This document shows, piece by piece, positions 41,182-54,139 of a stretch of DNA of 64,000 nt. The notes below the pieces were generated by a model. It was not told the origin of the DNA and searched no databases. It worked only from the letters and a program-made list of their open reading frames with translations. The DNA comes from Minwuiaceae bacterium (lineage in GTDB: Bacteria > Pseudomonadota > Alphaproteobacteria > Minwuiales > Minwuiaceae): positions 62,001-126,000 of the forward strand of contig JANQEE010000030.1 of assembly GCA_028278525.1 (NCBI GenBank), written 5' to 3'. Positions within the stretch are counted from its first letter, which is position 1, and every line of letters begins with the position of its first letter. A program made the position numbers and the translations under genes.

Positions 41182-44100
41182 CTACTCCGCCGCGCTGGCT
41201 TGGGGCGCCGGTGCGCGAAATGCCGCCAGTAGCCTTTCCCGCTCGGCATTCGCCTGTTCCAGATTGGCCGCCTTGACGTGCCCGAAGCCACGAATCCGGT
41301 CCGGAATTTGGGCGATCTGTACCGCCAGACCGTGGCTGTCGACGGAAAGGCCGTCCAGAACTTCGGCCATCGTGGCTTCGTAATCACGGATCGACTGCCG
41401 TTCCGCCCGGCGCTCCTCGGAATAGCCGAACACATCCCATCGGCTGCCGCGCAGTCCACGCAGGCCTGCCAGCAGGCCAAAGGCTTTCATCATCCATGGC
41501 CCGTATTCGCGTTTCTGCAACGCCCCGGTCTCCAGATCTCGGGTGGCGAACAAGGGCGGCGCAAGATGAAAACTCAGCCGGAAGTCGCCCTCGAACTGCT
41601 GATTGAGTTTTTCGGCGAACGTGCCGTCCGTGTAAAGCCGCGCGACTTCGTACTCGTCCTTGTAGGCCATCAGCTTGAAATAATTGCGGGCGACCGCCTC
41701 CGCCAGACCGGTGCGGCCCTTGGCGCGGGTTTGCTCCGCGTCGGCTACTTGATCGACCAGGGACCTGTAGCGCGTCGCGTATGCGGCATCCTGATAGTCG
41801 GTCAGGAACGCAGCCCGGCGGGCAACGATGCTGTCTAGATCCTGTGGCAGGGCGTCCGGCTTCACGGTGCCACGGATCAGCGGGCCGGCGATCGCGTCGA
41901 CTTTCTCCGGCTGGTGGGCGGCCAAACGTCCCCAGGCAATCGTACGCTTGTTGGCGTCCACGGCCACGCCGTTCAATTCGACGGCGCGTTCGATAGCCTC
42001 CAGGTTCAGTGGGATCAGGCCTTTCTGGAACGCATAGCCGACCATAAACAGGTTGGTGGCGATGGAATCGCCCATCAACGCCGTGGCCAGCTTGGTGGCG
42101 TTTACGAAATCGGCGCGCCCGTCGCCGGCAGCTTCCGTGATGCTGCGCTGCATCGGTCCGCCGGACAGGTCGATGGCCTGATCCATGACGAACGCGGCGG
42201 GCGGCGTCACGTGGCTGTTGACCACCGCCCGGCTGGCGCCCTGGTTGAGTCGCGACAGCGTATCGGGCGCCGCGGCCACGACGATGTCGCAGCCGAGCAG
42301 CAGGCGCGCGCCGCCGGCCGCGACCCGCACTGAATGCAGGTCTTCGGCCTTGTCGGCGAGCCGCACATGGGTCGCCACCGCGCCGTTCTTTTGCGCCAGG
42401 CCGGTTTGGTCCAGCACGGTGACGCCTTTTCCTTCCAGGTGCGCGGCCATGCCGAGCAGCGCGCCGATGGTGATGACGCCGGTACCGCCGATGCCGGTGA
42501 CGACGATGCCATAGGGTTCCGCCGTCGACGGCAGGGTTGGCAGCGGCAGGTCGGCGAACGGATCGCCGTCTACGGCTGCCGGTCCGGCCGGCGCCGCTTT
42601 GCGCACCTGGCCGCCATGCACGGTGACGAAGCTTGGGCAGAAACCCTTGATGCAGGAATAGTCCTTGTTGCAGTTGGACTGATCGATCTGCCGCTTGCGG
42701 CCGAATTCCGTTTCCAGTGGCTGCACCGAAACGCAGTTCGATTTGGCCGAGCAGTCGCCGCAGCCTTCGCAAACCAGGTCGTTGATGAAAATACGTTTCT
42801 GCGGGTCCGGGTAGGTCCCGCGTTTGCGGCGGCGGCGCTTTTCGGCCGCGCAGGTCTGGTCGTAGACCAGCACGGTAACGCCCGGTTCTTCGCGCAGATC
42901 GCGCTGCACCCGGTCCAGCGAATCCCGGTGGTGGACGGTGACGCCCGGCGGAAATCCATAGCCGGCCGGATACTTGTCTGGCTCGTCGGTCACCACGACC
43001 ACTTTGTTGACGCCTTCCGCGGCGACCTGCCGGGTGATCGCGTCGACCGTCAGGCCTTCTTCCAGGGGCTGACCGCCGGTCATGGCGACCGCGTCGTTGT
43101 AGAGGATCTTGTAGGTGATGTTGACTTTGGCCGCCACCGCGGCGCGGATCGCCAGAATACCGGAATGATAGTAGGTGCCGTCGCCGAGATTGGCGAAGAT
43201 GTGCTTCTCCTCGGTGAACGGCGCCAGACCGATCCAATTGACGCCTTCGCCGCCCATATGCGTCGCGTATTCCGTGCGCCGGCGTTGGTCGAAGATCGCC
43301 ATCGCGTGGCAGCCGATGCCGGCCATCGCCCGGCTGCCTTCCGGCAGCCGCGTGCCGGTGTTATGCGGGCAGCCGGAGCAGAAGAAGGGCAGGCGCACCA
43401 GGGTCGCGCCGCCGATCTTGCGCTGGTCCAACGATTCGATGCGCGCCAGCCGCTGTTTGAATTCCGGCCGTTCTTCCATCCGGTTGACGCGGCCGGCGAT
43501 CACCTGGGCGATCATCGGCGGCGACAGTTCGCCTTTGGCAGGCAATAGTGTATTGCCCTGTTCGTCGGTCTTGCCGACGATCCGGCGCGGCGCGTTTTCC
43601 AGGTTATAGAGCAGGCGGGTCAACTGGGTTTCTATGAAGCCCTGCTTCTCTTCGATGACCAGGATTTCTTCCAAACCCTCCGCAAAGGCCAAGGCGCCCT
43701 GCGGTTCCAGCGGCCAGGTCAGCCCCACTTTGTACAGGCGAATGCCAAGCTCGGCGGCGGCCGCTTCGTCGATGCCGACTTCGTCCAGCGCCTGCCGCAC
43801 GTCCAGGTAGGCCTTGCCGGTCGTCACGATGCCAAGCCGCGCCTTCGGGCTGTCCATAACGATGCGGTCGATGGGATTGGCCCGTGCGAAGGCGAGGACG
43901 GCCGGCAGCTTATGGTCGTGTTGTATGGCCTCTGTGCCGAGCGGGTCGTAGCGGATGCCGATATGCATGCCGTCATCCGGCAGGTCCATATCGTCGGGTT
44001 CGCGGAACCGCAGACGCTGCGGATCGACGGAAACGGACGCCGAGCTTTCGACCGTGTCTGACACAGCCTTGAAACCGATCCAGCAGCCGGAATAGCGCGA

Positions 44101-44667
44101 CAGCGCGAACCCATAGAGACCGAAGTCTAAATATTCCTGCACGTTAGACGGATTGAGCACGGGGATCAGCGCAGCCGCGAACGCCTGCTCGCTTTGATGC
44201 GGCACGGCCGACGACTTTGCGCCATGATCGTCACCGGCAATCAGCAGAACGCCGCCATGCTTCGACGGCCCGGCATTATTGCCGTGCTTGAACACGTCGC
44301 CGGACCGGTCGACGCCCGGCCCTTTGCCGTACCAGATCGCGAAAACGCCGTCATACTTCGCGCCCGGATGCAGGCCGGTCTGCTGGCTGCCCCAGATCGC
44401 GGTCGCGGCCAGGTCTTCGTTCAGGCCAGGCTGGAAAACGATGTGACTGCGTTCCAGAAAGGGCTTCGCGCGCCACAGCGCATGGTCGTAGCCGCCGAGC
44501 GGCGAACCGCGATAACCCGTGACCAGTCCGGCGGTGTTCAACCCCGCCGCGACGTCGCGCTGGCGCTGCATCATCGGCAGGCGAACCAGCGCCTGCATGC
44601 CGGTCAGGTAGACTTTGCCCGATTCCAGCTCGTACTTGTCGTCAAGGGATACGTTGGCCAGCGCCAT
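41182..44667 (-). CDS. Indolepyruvate ferredoxin oxidoreductase, one-polypeptide form
   Basis: 1161 residues. Oxidatively decarboxylates aryl 2-oxo acids to acyl-CoA with thiamine diphosphate and Fe-S clusters. Order: transketolase-like N-terminus (TGYRGSPLGGYD), TPP-binding domain (FANLGDGTYYHSG, YNDAVAMTGGQP), ferredoxin-like cysteine motif LVCEGCGDCSAKSNC plus CNKDYSCIKGFCPS, gamma domain (VVTGIGGTGVITIGALLG) and a C-terminal alpha region. The archaeal enzyme is split into IorA and IorB; here both are fused, as in many alphaproteobacteria. A GGAGG site precedes the ATG. Apparently a single-gene unit. Confidence 0.9.
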   Translation of the reverse strand: MALANVSLDDKYELESGKVYLTGMQALVRLPMMQRQRDVAAGLNTAGLVTGYRGSPLGGYDHALWRAKPFLERSHIVFQPGLNEDLAATAIWGSQQTGLHPGAKYDGVFAIWYGKGPGVDRSGDVFKHGNNAGPSKHGGVLLIAGDDHGAKSSAVPHQSEQAFAAALIPVLNPSNVQEYLDFGLYGFALSRYSGCWIGFKAVSDTVESSASVSVDPQRLRFREPDDMDLPDDGMHIGIRYDPLGTEAIQHDHKLPAVLAFARANPIDRIVMDSPKARLGIVTTGKAYLDVRQALDEVGIDEAAAAELGIRLYKVGLTWPLEPQGALAFAEGLEEILVIEEKQGFIETQLTRLLYNLENAPRRIVGKTDEQGNTLLPAKGELSPPMIAQVIAGRVNRMEERPEFKQRLARIESLDQRKIGGATLVRLPFFCSGCPHNTGTRLPEGSRAMAGIGCHAMAIFDQRRRTEYATHMGGEGVNWIGLAPFTEEKHIFANLGDGTYYHSGILAIRAAVAAKVNITYKILYNDAVAMTGGQPLEEGLTVDAITRQVAAEGVNKVVVVTDEPDKYPAGYGFPPGVTVHHRDSLDRVQRDLREEPGVTVLVYDQTCAAEKRRRRKRGTYPDPQKRIFINDLVCEGCGDCSAKSNCVSVQPLETEFGRKRQIDQSNCNKDYSCIKGFCPSFVTVHGGQVRKAAPAGPAAVDGDPFADLPLPTLPSTAEPYGIVVTGIGGTGVITIGALLGMAAHLEGKGVTVLDQTGLAQKNGAVATHVRLADKAEDLHSVRVAAGGARLLLGCDIVVAAAPDTLSRLNQGASRAVVNSHVTPPAAFVMDQAIDLSGGPMQRSITEAAGDGRADFVNATKLATALMGDSIATNLFMVGYAFQKGLIPLNLEAIERAVELNGVAVDANKRTIAWGRLAAHQPEKVDAIAGPLIRGTVKPDALPQDLDSIVARRAAFLTDYQDAAYATRYRSLVDQVADAEQTRAKGRTGLAEAVARNYFKLMAYKDEYEVARLYTDGTFAEKLNQQFEGDFRLSFHLAPPLFATRDLETGALQKREYGPWMMKAFGLLAGLRGLRGSRWDVFGYSEERRAERQSIRDYEATMAEVLDGLSVDSHGLAVQIAQIPDRIRGFGHVKAANLEQANAERERLLAAFRAPAPQASAAE

Positions 44668-51508: not shown

Positions 51509-51530
51509 ACGACGGGCAATCGAGGTGTGT

Positions 51531-51560
51531 AAGGGGGCGGCGATTGCCGCCTCCTTTTTT
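51531..51560 (+). terminator. Rho-independent terminator after the cyclase-family gene
   Basis: Stem of 11 pairs: AAGGGGGCGGC (51531-51541) with GCCGCCTCCTT (51546-51556), one G-T pair, 4-base loop GATT, followed by a T-run to 51560. It overlaps the stop codon of the convergent Fe-S gene, but the T-run fits plus-strand transcription. Confidence 0.85.
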
Positions 51561-52524
51561 ATGAGCGCTGCCGCCGGCTCATCTTCTCGGCCAGGTTTGG
51601 CGCGATGCCGGGCCGGCTCCATGGACAGACGGCGATGCAGATGCCGCAGCCATGAGTCTCGTTGAAATACGGCACGCATTTGTCGAAGTCGACATACCAT
51701 TTCTTCTCGCCGCGCACGGTCTGTTTCTCGCGGAAGATGGCGTCCGGCGGACAGGCCTTTGTGCAAAGCTGACAGTTCTGGCAGAAGTCGTCGGCGCCGA
51801 AGATGTCCGCCTGATCAGCGACCAGCGGCATGTCGGTCAGTACGCAAGCGAGGCGAAACGACGAACCGTAAGTCCGGTTGATGATCGAGCCGTGCTTGCC
51901 CAACTCGCCGAACCCGCAGGCCAGCGCCGCCGGGATCATCACCACCGGCCCGGCCTGCGGTCCGCCATGGGCCAACGCGTCGTAGCCCTGGCTCAGGACC
52001 CAGTCGGTCAACGCCCGCGCCGCGCGGGTGCCGCGATTATATTGGCGCATCACTTCGATCACCGACGGCGGCTCCGGCGCGGTCGCCAGTTCGGCATGGT
52101 CCATCTCCAGCCCCAGCACGATCATCCAGGGATAGTCCGCATCGTACCCGTCGAACACCCAGGTCGGATCCATCCGCGCGACGCCGACCAGGTCGGACTC
52201 GTTGGCAAGCGCGAATTCCTTCGCCTTTGCCGTCCATTCGGTCGGTGTGCCATCTGCCGGCGCCGATGCCTTGGCCGCCCGCTCTTCCGGGCCGCGTCCG
52301 TCCAGGCTGGCTTTCAGGTCGGCGGTCTCGGGCACCAGCCGGCTGGTCCGTTCAAGCATCCACTTCTGCAATTTGCCGTGCGCCAGCTTTCTCGGAGAGT
52401 GCCAGTAAATCGGTGTCGGCCGCCGGCGGGCTTCCTCTCCCAGGCCATTGAGGGCATTGCCGGAAATGTCGGGAACCAGCCGCTTCTGTTCCTCGCAGGG
52501 TTCGAATACAGATTCGCTACTCAT
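51559..52524 (-). CDS. Soluble RdhA/QueG-like corrinoid and 4Fe-4S protein
   Basis: 321 residues. C-terminal pair of cluster motifs FCQNCQLCTKACP and HGCGICIAVCPW, and before them GFGELGKHGSIINRTYG with RLACVLTDMPL, the corrinoid-domain pattern shared by reductive dehalogenases and epoxyqueuosine reductase. There is no Tat signal or membrane-anchor gene, so it is not a respiratory dehalogenase, and the N-terminal part differs from QueG. Cytoplasmic; probably a reductase of an unsaturated or halogenated intermediate. Located 7 bp after the acyl-CoA synthetase gene, same strand. ATG at 52524 preferred to the long low-complexity extension. Confidence 0.78.
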   Translation of the reverse strand: MSSESVFEPCEEQKRLVPDISGNALNGLGEEARRRPTPIYWHSPRKLAHGKLQKWMLERTSRLVPETADLKASLDGRGPEERAAKASAPADGTPTEWTAKAKEFALANESDLVGVARMDPTWVFDGYDADYPWMIVLGLEMDHAELATAPEPPSVIEVMRQYNRGTRAARALTDWVLSQGYDALAHGGPQAGPVVMIPAALACGFGELGKHGSIINRTYGSSFRLACVLTDMPLVADQADIFGADDFCQNCQLCTKACPPDAIFREKQTVRGEKKWYVDFDKCVPYFNETHGCGICIAVCPWSRPGIAPNLAEKMSRRQRS

Positions 52525-52531
52525 TTGTGCC

Positions 52532-54139
52532 TCATCCGGGGGTAAGGGCTGACTGGGCAAACGCTGCCGCCTTCTTGTAGTCGGCCTTGCCGTTCGGTCC
52601 GCGCGCCATATCGCCGATCGGCAGGATGCGTTTCGGCGTCTTGTAGCCGGCCAGATGGCCGCGCACATAGGCGCGCAGATTCGTCTCGTCGAACGTCGCG
52701 CCGTTGCGCGGCTGTACGATGCCGGTAACGGCCTGTCCCCAGCGCGGGTCGGGCACGCCGACGACCAGTGCGTCGGCGACGTCCGGGTGCTGCTTCAGGA
52801 CTTCCTCGACCTCCTCCGGATAGACCTTCTCGCCGCCGGTATTGATGCAGACGCTGCCGCGGCCCAGCAGCGTCAGGCTGCCGTCGGCTTCCACCTGGCA
52901 CCAATCGCCCGGCATCGAATAGCGCACGCCGTCGATGGTCTTGAACGTCGACGCCGTCTTTTCGGCATCCTTGTAGTAGCCGACCGGGATCGGCCCGCTG
53001 CGCGCGACCTGGCCGGGCTCATTGCTGCCGGGCGTCACTTCGCGGCCGTCTTCGGTGAATACCTTGACCTGTTCTCCGAGTTCGAACTTCGCCGTGCGCC
53101 ATTCGCCCTCCGCTGTCGTGATGGAAAGGCCGAAGCCGACCGCTTCGGATGCACCGAACGAATCCAACATGGCGGCCTGCGGCAGATGCTTGAGCAGGCC
53201 GCGTTTGTTTTCGATGCTCCACATCACGCCGGACGACACGATGGCGGCCAGCGCGCTCAGATCGTAGGCGCCGGGGTTCCGTTCCAGCGCTTCCAGCATC
53301 GGATTGGCGAACACGTCGCCGACAATCGCGATCTGTTGTACCTGATGCTTGGCGGCGGACCGCCACAGTTCATGTGCGTCGAACGTCGCGCCTTCCATGG
53401 TGACGACGGTGCCGCCCATCGCCAATGCGCCGATCGACGTCACCAGCCCGGTGCCATGCATCTGCGGGCAGGCCGGCAGCAGACAGGTGCCGGGCCCGTC
53501 AGTGGCGACGATGTCGACATGCTCCGCGAGGTCCCCGGGCACCTTCTCCAGGATCGGAATTTGAAGCTGCGCGCGCCGCAAATCGTCGGCGCGCCACATC
53601 ACACCCTTGGGCATGCCCGTCGTGCCACCGGTATAGATGAAGAACAGATCGTCGGGCGACCGCTCGATCTCGAGCGGGCTGTCGTCGCCTTCGCCAGCGA
53701 AGCCTTCATAGCCGTAGGCAAAGTCCGGTGCCGGACCATCCGCCCAGGTCTGCGCCCAGATCTGAACCTTCGGCTGTCTTGGTTGCAAGGCCGTCGCGAG
53801 CTCGGCGAACTCGGGCTCGAAGATCACCGCGGCCGCGTCGGAATCGTCCAGCAGATAGTGCAGTTCCTCCTCGCGGTAGCGATAGTTGACGTTGACATGG
53901 ACCAGCCGCGCTTTGAAGCAGGCGGCGACGCATTCCATGTATTCCGGCCGGTTGCGCATATAGACGGCAACCTTGTCGCCAGCGTTCAGCCCATGCGCCA
54001 GCAGGGCGCGGGCCAGCCGGTTGGTTCGCCGGTCGAAGCTCTCCCAGGTGATTGTCCTGCCGTTATGCACCAGCGCGGGGTGATCCGGCGGCACCACCAG
54101 CGCAACGGCATCCAGGATGTCGCCGTAGTTCCAGCCCAT
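52532..54139 (-). CDS. Acyl-CoA synthetase (AMP-forming, FadD19-like)
   Basis: 535 residues. Activates a carboxylic acid to its CoA ester. ATP-binding YTGGTTGMPKGVMWR, then FGASEAVGFG, GDWCQVEADGSL and catalytic Lys in GPNGKADYKK. The PKGVMWR form is typical of synthetases for steroid side chains and other bulky acids in actinobacteria. Likely co-transcribed with the downstream Fe-S protein; diverges from the LLM monooxygenase. Confidence 0.88.
   Translation of the reverse strand: MGWNYGDILDAVALVVPPDHPALVHNGRTITWESFDRRTNRLARALLAHGLNAGDKVAVYMRNRPEYMECVAACFKARLVHVNVNYRYREEELHYLLDDSDAAAVIFEPEFAELATALQPRQPKVQIWAQTWADGPAPDFAYGYEGFAGEGDDSPLEIERSPDDLFFIYTGGTTGMPKGVMWRADDLRRAQLQIPILEKVPGDLAEHVDIVATDGPGTCLLPACPQMHGTGLVTSIGALAMGGTVVTMEGATFDAHELWRSAAKHQVQQIAIVGDVFANPMLEALERNPGAYDLSALAAIVSSGVMWSIENKRGLLKHLPQAAMLDSFGASEAVGFGLSITTAEGEWRTAKFELGEQVKVFTEDGREVTPGSNEPGQVARSGPIPVGYYKDAEKTASTFKTIDGVRYSMPGDWCQVEADGSLTLLGRGSVCINTGGEKVYPEEVEEVLKQHPDVADALVVGVPDPRWGQAVTGIVQPRNGATFDETNLRAYVRGHLAGYKTPKRILPIGDMARGPNGKADYKKAAAFAQSALTPG

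Follow-up and report, generated by a model that had tools for sequence, protein, structure and literature searches.

The window, the whole stretch of 64,000 nucleotides analysed here, carries on its minus strand, from 52524 to 51559, a stop-free frame for a 321-residue protein that resembles reductive dehalogenases (RdhA) (Table 1). The first-pass annotation had given the span 51559-52524 to a protein of this kind; the coordinates hold and the strand is minus, the plus-strand reading of the same interval containing a stop. A longer frame could open at an upstream ATG at 52668, but this start is disfavoured because the extension would enter the acyl-CoA synthetase gene; homologues align with the start at 52524, and GAGG stands 5 bases before its ATG. 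The overlapping plus-strand open reading frame at 51652-52545 is unsupported, and it is the minus frame that is joined by 50 others in its clade (see the tree below) and shares 61-67% identity with seven relatives from the same family. A gene fusion, as read from open frames of 678 and 747 residues in relatives, was dropped after reading L058, L061 and L063, since in these a long stretch free of stops simply ends in the usual protein.

Directly upstream, across a 7-base gap on the same strand, lies an acyl-CoA synthetase gene whose stop codon overlaps the GAGG before the rdh start, and the two genes are probably co-transcribed in this genome. No rdhB was found at the locus, where the synthetase gene lies upstream and, downstream, a gap of 50 bases that leaves no room for rdhB is followed by a convergent cyclase gene. 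At 41182-44667 on the minus strand, roughly 7 kb away from rdh, the window also encodes a POR-family oxidoreductase with DUF6537, possibly a ferredoxin-reducing enzyme, which we take to be of the indolepyruvate ferredoxin oxidoreductase type. The whole window gave no Rfam match at the gathering score.

Table 1. Coordinates of the RdhA-like gene, its predicted functional residues, the adjoining features and the tandem arrays of genome G744
Feature	Coordinates	Strand	Basis
Short soluble RdhA-like protein, 321 aa	51559..52524	-	Translation, best NCBIfam match (reductive dehalogenase), PDB matches, AlphaFold2 model with fold matches, tree
SGNALNG, N-terminal signature (SGNxxNG), residues 21-27	52444..52464	-	Pattern scan
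V158, position of NpRdhA S422 (hydroxyl binding)	52051..52053	-	PDB-sequence alignment
Y162, predicted proton donor, position of PceA Y246 / NpRdhA Y426	52039..52041	-	Alignment
R224, position of PceA R305 / NpRdhA K488	51853..51855	-	Alignment
First [4Fe-4S] motif CQNCQLCTKACP, residues 248-259 (C248-C258)	51751..51783	-	Translation, Pfam, motif scan
Second [4Fe-4S] motif, C283 and CGICIAVCP at 293-301 (C283 to C300)	51625..51678	-	Translation, Pfam, motif scan
F287, position of NpRdhA R552 / PceA W376	51664..51666	-	Alignment
Gap of 50 bases to convergent cyclase gene	51509..51558	.	List of open reading frames; cyclase by Pfam
Acyl-CoA synthetase, PRK07798 type, directly upstream	52532..54139	-	NCBIfam NF005863, 678.2 bits, above cut-off
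Arrays of short-clade genes in genome G744	L140:1455-7546 and L141:2053-8359 (contigs C11 and C3)		

The affinities of the protein lie with the reductive dehalogenases. Its best NCBIfam match is the reductive dehalogenase model TIGR02486, at 100.8 bits against a cut-off of 160.35, so that we do not count it in that curated family, and the second is the QueG model TIGR00276, at 53.1 bits against a cut-off of 200. In Pfam, at E values up to 1, only iron-sulfur families were matched, with no dehalogenase domain and no C-terminal reductase (PDOR) domain along the 321 residues, and a search of PDB sequences placed PceA (4.6e-24) and NpRdhA (1e-23) far ahead of the best QueG (2.4e-8). Features that mark the RdhA superfamily are present, namely two ferredoxin-type [4Fe-4S] motifs in the 321-residue protein, the full core fold round the corrinoid site in its AlphaFold2 model, and a catalytic tyrosine accompanied by an arginine or lysine (Y162 and R224). 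All eight cluster cysteines occur in the query, and across the 51-row clade alignment six show no variation and two (251 and 300) almost none. The reading of these cluster motifs as RdhA-like in the first-pass annotation is thereby borne out and reflects no chance resemblance, as is its description of a soluble protein devoid of Tat signal or anchor: no Tat motif (RRx[F/L/I/V/M]) was found within the first 45 residues and no N-terminal transmembrane helix, the highest 19-residue hydropathy mean being 1.4, at residue 191. Exceptions among the 51 clade rows are L040, with an RR pattern within its first 45 residues, and one row from genome G744, with a 19-residue window of mean hydropathy 1.95.

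The AlphaFold2 model, built on the 51-row alignment, reached a pLDDT of 95.0 and a pTM of 0.93. In VIA-align comparisons, residues 31-321 of the model matched NpRdhA with Z 27.5 (rmsd 2.8 over 281 residues) and residues 28-318 matched PceA with Z 27.2 (rmsd 3.2-3.3 over 279-280 residues), against Z 15.8 for the best QueG, where the match began only at model residue 93 (rmsd 2.4 over 195 residues). Residues 31-321 of the model correspond to NpRdhA 279-591, and the query therefore lacks the vestigial first core seen in catabolic RdhAs. According to PMC10463259, this vestigial core mimics the PceA dimer interface and renders NpRdhA monomeric. A PceA-like homodimer is thus predicted for the 321-residue protein, which, by analogy, probably adopts this form.

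A tree of 110 RdhA and QueG rows was anchored by BhbA of Comamonas plasmid pBHB, two Sulfurospirillum plasmid rdhA genes, the fused enzymes of Ruegeria and Nitratireductor, and E. coli QueG, in a set that holds no Dehalococcoides, Desulfitobacterium, Asgard or Ros_A3X954 sequences. The query belongs to a 51-member clade of short proteins with support of 95/94 (UFboot/SH-aLRT), whose members, as cut for the alignment, span 315-352 residues with the exception of L027 (224 residues). This clade is separate from QueG, from the BhbA/NpRdhA type, from the respiratory enzymes and from a soluble group of 11 rows (open frames of 403-481 residues) that lies with the Sulfurospirillum rows. The latter group, to which the query does not belong, includes L139, which has both cluster motifs printed for the debrominase Ros_A3X954, and is called Ros-type below. 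A branch of 3.28 changes per column, with support of 100/100, separates the four QueG rows from the rest. Removal of eight rows with flagged long branches left 46 clade rows on one side of a branch supported at 78/50, and this drop makes the outer limit of the clade uncertain while leaving its separation from QueG unaffected; the unity of the 51-row clade is only moderately supported. A further RdhA-like group from Alphaproteobacteria (L050, L051, L052, L095, L103, L104, L106 and L107; open frames of 306-347 residues, one of 452) also stands apart in the tree, along with L084, and has CHxCxDxCP as its second cluster motif and serine at position 287 in 8/8 rows. In L054, L056, L057 and L130, RdhA-like sequences with open frames of 408-431 residues on a long branch, serine replaces the catalytic tyrosine in the alignment.

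The residues predicted to line the active site set the clade apart in a second way. Columns were counted over all 110 tree rows, with PceA and NpRdhA residue numbers counted by hand in the PDB-sequence alignments. Position 162 is tyrosine in 51/51 clade rows, as in 29/29 catabolic-type, 11/11 Ros-type, 2/2 respiratory and 4/4 QueG rows, so the tyrosine is no discriminator. Only the arginine speaks for RdhA chemistry: position 224 is arginine throughout the clade (51/51) and in the Ros-type (11/11) and respiratory (2/2) rows, lysine in 29/29 catabolic-type rows and phenylalanine in 4/4 QueG rows. Valine prevails at position 158 in the clade (46 V, 4 I, 1 T), where 29/29 catabolic-type rows have serine. 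Phenylalanine does so at position 287 (41 F, 5 M, 2 V, 2 I, 1 L), where arginine is found in 28/29 catabolic-type rows (the other has a gap) and tryptophan in 11/11 Ros-type and 2/2 respiratory rows. For the roles of NpRdhA Y426, K488, R552 and S422 we follow PMC7565698, in which S422, K488 and R552 hold the phenol hydroxyl. By these counts, the clade has kept the PceA-type Tyr/Arg pair and lacks the hydroxyl-binding triad of NpRdhA; with V/R/F in the query in place of S422/K488/R552, ortho-halophenols need not be the substrate. Strict SGNxxNG near the N-terminus occurs in 43/51 clade members and in 0/59 of the other RdhA and QueG rows, and, as far as these aligned sequences reach, the V158/R224/F287 pocket signature together with this motif is the clade's own.

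The genome that holds the window also has a separate queG (C31:17813-18811; 456.1 bits, above the cut-off), and a gene for the cobaltochelatase CobN scores 1194.9 bits. The tree, the structure and this separate queG uphold the earlier view that the protein is not QueG, and the case named there as refuting it, a clear place within QueG in a genome with no other queG, does not arise. Other genes of the wider superfamily occur in the same genome. At L091:6264-8345 (contig C8 of G000) is a second RdhA, of 693 residues and of the NpRdhA type without the reductase domain, adjoined by two genes that by eye resemble cytochrome c peroxidases. At L093:7748-9802 (contig C35 of G000) two adjacent QueG/RdhA-like genes of 339 and 341 residues score weakly against both the reductive dehalogenase and QueG models, alongside a gene that by eye resembles a phenylacetate-CoA ligase. 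Within its own GTDB family, 8/9 genomes, including its own, have a match to the query (G001 does not), and in the class sample 22/385 genomes have one above 200 bits. Several of these carry at least two or three copies, the numbers being lower bounds since scoring was limited to five candidates in each genome. Across the phylum sample, 3/398 genomes passed 1e-25 (its own, G030 and G744), none of them from another class, and outside the class we found Granulicella (L017) and a fragment of 56 residues in an acidobacterial record (L019). The phage and plasmid collections held no clade member, the plasmid matches having at most 33.3% identity and being RdhA/BhbA types, QueG or unannotated.

The best contextual clue to function comes from G744, a genome of 2.4 Mb in which ten genes of the short clade form two tandem arrays, five in each; their products are 35-41% identical to the query. 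One array lies within an island of genes for aromatic-ring catabolism (L148, L149). Above the NCBIfam cut-offs, this island encodes a catechol 2,3-dioxygenase, a 4-hydroxybenzoate 3-monooxygenase and a 3-oxoadipyl-CoA thiolase; below them, it holds a catechol-type intradiol dioxygenase nearest to chlorocatechol 1,2-dioxygenase, a biphenyl-diol-type extradiol dioxygenase and a 2-oxo-3-hexenedioate-decarboxylase-type protein. Pfam adds a LigB protein, an FAD ring hydroxylase, a [2Fe-2S] protein of reductase size, an iron-containing alcohol dehydrogenase (Fe-ADH), two CoA transferases, a Rieske protein and a TonB receptor plug. The [2Fe-2S] protein, for which Pfam gives Fer2 only, is presumably a reductase of the PDOR/VanB type, and the Fe-ADH, for which Pfam gives that family only, we take to be a maleylacetate reductase; NCBIfam at 1e-40 returned nothing for either. 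Near the second array are a DmpG-type aldolase and an acetaldehyde dehydrogenase. Ten island proteins compared by BLAST with 50 other stretches gave no match, so that among these the aromatic context belongs to the G744 copies only.

Taken together, these observations lead us to propose that the gene encodes a reductive dehalogenase of minimal size that works in the cytosol with cobalamin, or an enzyme functionally very close to one, a reading to which we assign a probability of roughly 0.6. In this proposal, base-off cobalamin would sit in the core, and a separate reductase or ferredoxin would supply electrons, which would reach the cobalt by way of the two [4Fe-4S] clusters. A natural organohalide, mostly non-polar and probably aromatic, would then have its carbon-halogen bond cleaved, with a proton from Y162, tuned by R224, and the dehalogenated product would enter ordinary catabolism. 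By analogy with characterized relatives, the core chemistry is well supported and the clade as a whole probably strips halogens from organic molecules, though we acknowledge that the substrate assignment is weakly supported and that of the electron donor hardly at all. Among the matches listed, the best 20 in the larger searches, we found no assayed member of the short clade in the literature, nor, among those from the open-licence literature, a description of a short single-core clade with its own pocket.

The first-pass annotation had read the adjacent acyl-CoA synthetase gene as a sign that the substrate may be a CoA thioester or free acid; such a compound would be passed by or to that enzyme, and the tight spacing of the two genes on one strand is in keeping with this idea. 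Conservation of the coupling gives it no support. The ligase was compared by BLAST with 50 stretches (the window, L094 from the same region, three others from its own genome and 45 more) and matched itself and five ligases at 24-32% identity (L065, L068, L074, L076 and L093, one of them elsewhere in its own genome), with no orthologue. Among the five, only the ligase of L076 shares an apparent operon with a clade member, in a tight run at L076:8522-14349 of CoA ligase, alpha/beta hydrolase, FAD-binding oxidase and short-clade rdh, and this run speaks for the idea. Three of the seven relatives from the same family (L059, L060 and L064), by contrast, have in place of the ligase another gene that overlaps rdh by four bases, in L060 an aminotransferase gene. 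We sought a conserved operon around clade members and found none: a scan of 20 neighbouring proteins of other members matched, among others, argininosuccinate synthase, a MiaB-like protein, Dus, an aminotransferase, a histidine kinase, a ThiD-like kinase, RpiB, SHMT, TauD and, in L076, the AMP-binding ligase. The 321-residue core, moreover, appears to have no extra domain for a CoA moiety. Since the coupling to the ligase is not conserved, the clue to the substrate is weak, and although a CoA thioester or free acid is possible for this one genome, we consider such a substrate improbable as the general explanation.

The varied neighbours also bear on whether the RdhA core might have been recruited for another cobalamin-dependent reduction in which no halogen takes part, such as that of an epoxide or an activated double bond, or the cleavage of a C-O or C-S bond. 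QueG provides a precedent, as the same fold is able to reduce an epoxide. The clade's own pocket (V158, F287) and N-terminal motif would suit such a departure, as would the many scanned neighbours with housekeeping or unrelated functions. At L013:4541-7910, for example, a short-clade rdh lies between MiaB-like and Dus tRNA-modification genes and overlaps the latter. Against this, the PceA-type Tyr/Arg pair is invariant in the clade, the G744 arrays stand among genes for aromatic-ring catabolism, and at least two or three copies in several genomes would suit catabolic diversification better than housekeeping. A reduction of this kind is thus conceivable, though we regard it as doubtful. That the protein might instead be a QueG paralogue acting on tRNA is suggested by its weak similarity to TIGR00276, the common core fold and the tyrosine at the same place. 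The fully resolved split and long branch of the QueG rows, their lack of arginine at position 224 (0/4) and the full-scoring queG of the genome itself make this reading very improbable.

If the preferred reading of a reductive dehalogenase is correct, these compact, single-core proteins with their different pocket would call for tests on a broader range of substrates and might lend themselves more readily to expression. They would also mark as possible halogen recyclers genomes that would not be taken for those of organohalide respirers, and the G744 arrays would provide pocket variants of natural origin, half of them next to ring-cleavage genes. PMC10463259 (2023) states that every catabolic RdhA characterised to then acted specifically on ortho-halogenated phenols, and describes a duplicated core in the catabolic RdhAs. 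More tentatively, we suggest that the clade represents an architecture beyond the four RdhA subfamilies set out in that paper: single-core, lacking Tat signal, anchor and reductase, with a separate clade and pocket, and acting as a cytosolic homodimer on a shared cellular reductase. With it, Alphaproteobacteria capable of oxygen-dependent ring cleavage may have a compact, B12-dependent means of removing halogens from natural organohalides beyond ortho-halophenols, in one 2.4-Mb genome expanded to ten tandem paralogues.

Soluble RdhAs without a Tat signal are already known from NpRdhA, BhbA, Ros_A3X954 and the Asgard enzymes, as PMC10463259, PMC13101508 and PMC6737245 describe. The earlier emphasis on the lack of export signals was overstated in this respect, while the protein's single-core length, separate clade and pocket are indeed unusual. 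With NpRdhA, BhbA and JtRdhA the query shares a cytosolic location free of Tat signal, the predicted core and the catalytic tyrosine; it differs in its single core, where these enzymes carry a vestigial duplicated one (in NpRdhA before about residue 279), and in lacking the PDOR reductase domain of BhbA and JtRdhA (PMC10463259). Their pocket Ser/Lys/Arg for the hydroxyl is likewise replaced by V/R/F. With the respiratory PceA of Sulfurospirillum multivorans it has in common the single core, the Tyr/Arg pair (Y246/R305) and the full-length fold, whereas it has no Tat signal and no rdhB, has F287 where PceA has W376 and is shorter by more than 100 residues. QueG shares a related core fold and two [4Fe-4S] clusters with the query, yet forms a separate clade (100/100) and has phenylalanine where the query has R224. 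The Roseobacter debrominase Ros_A3X954 is likewise soluble and free of a Tat signal, according to PMC13101508. Its type shares with the query the single-core outline without Tat signal, anchor or reductase and, in 11/11 rows, the Tyr and Arg, but it occupies another branch of the tree and presents tryptophan at position 287 (11/11) in contrast to the phenylalanine of the query.
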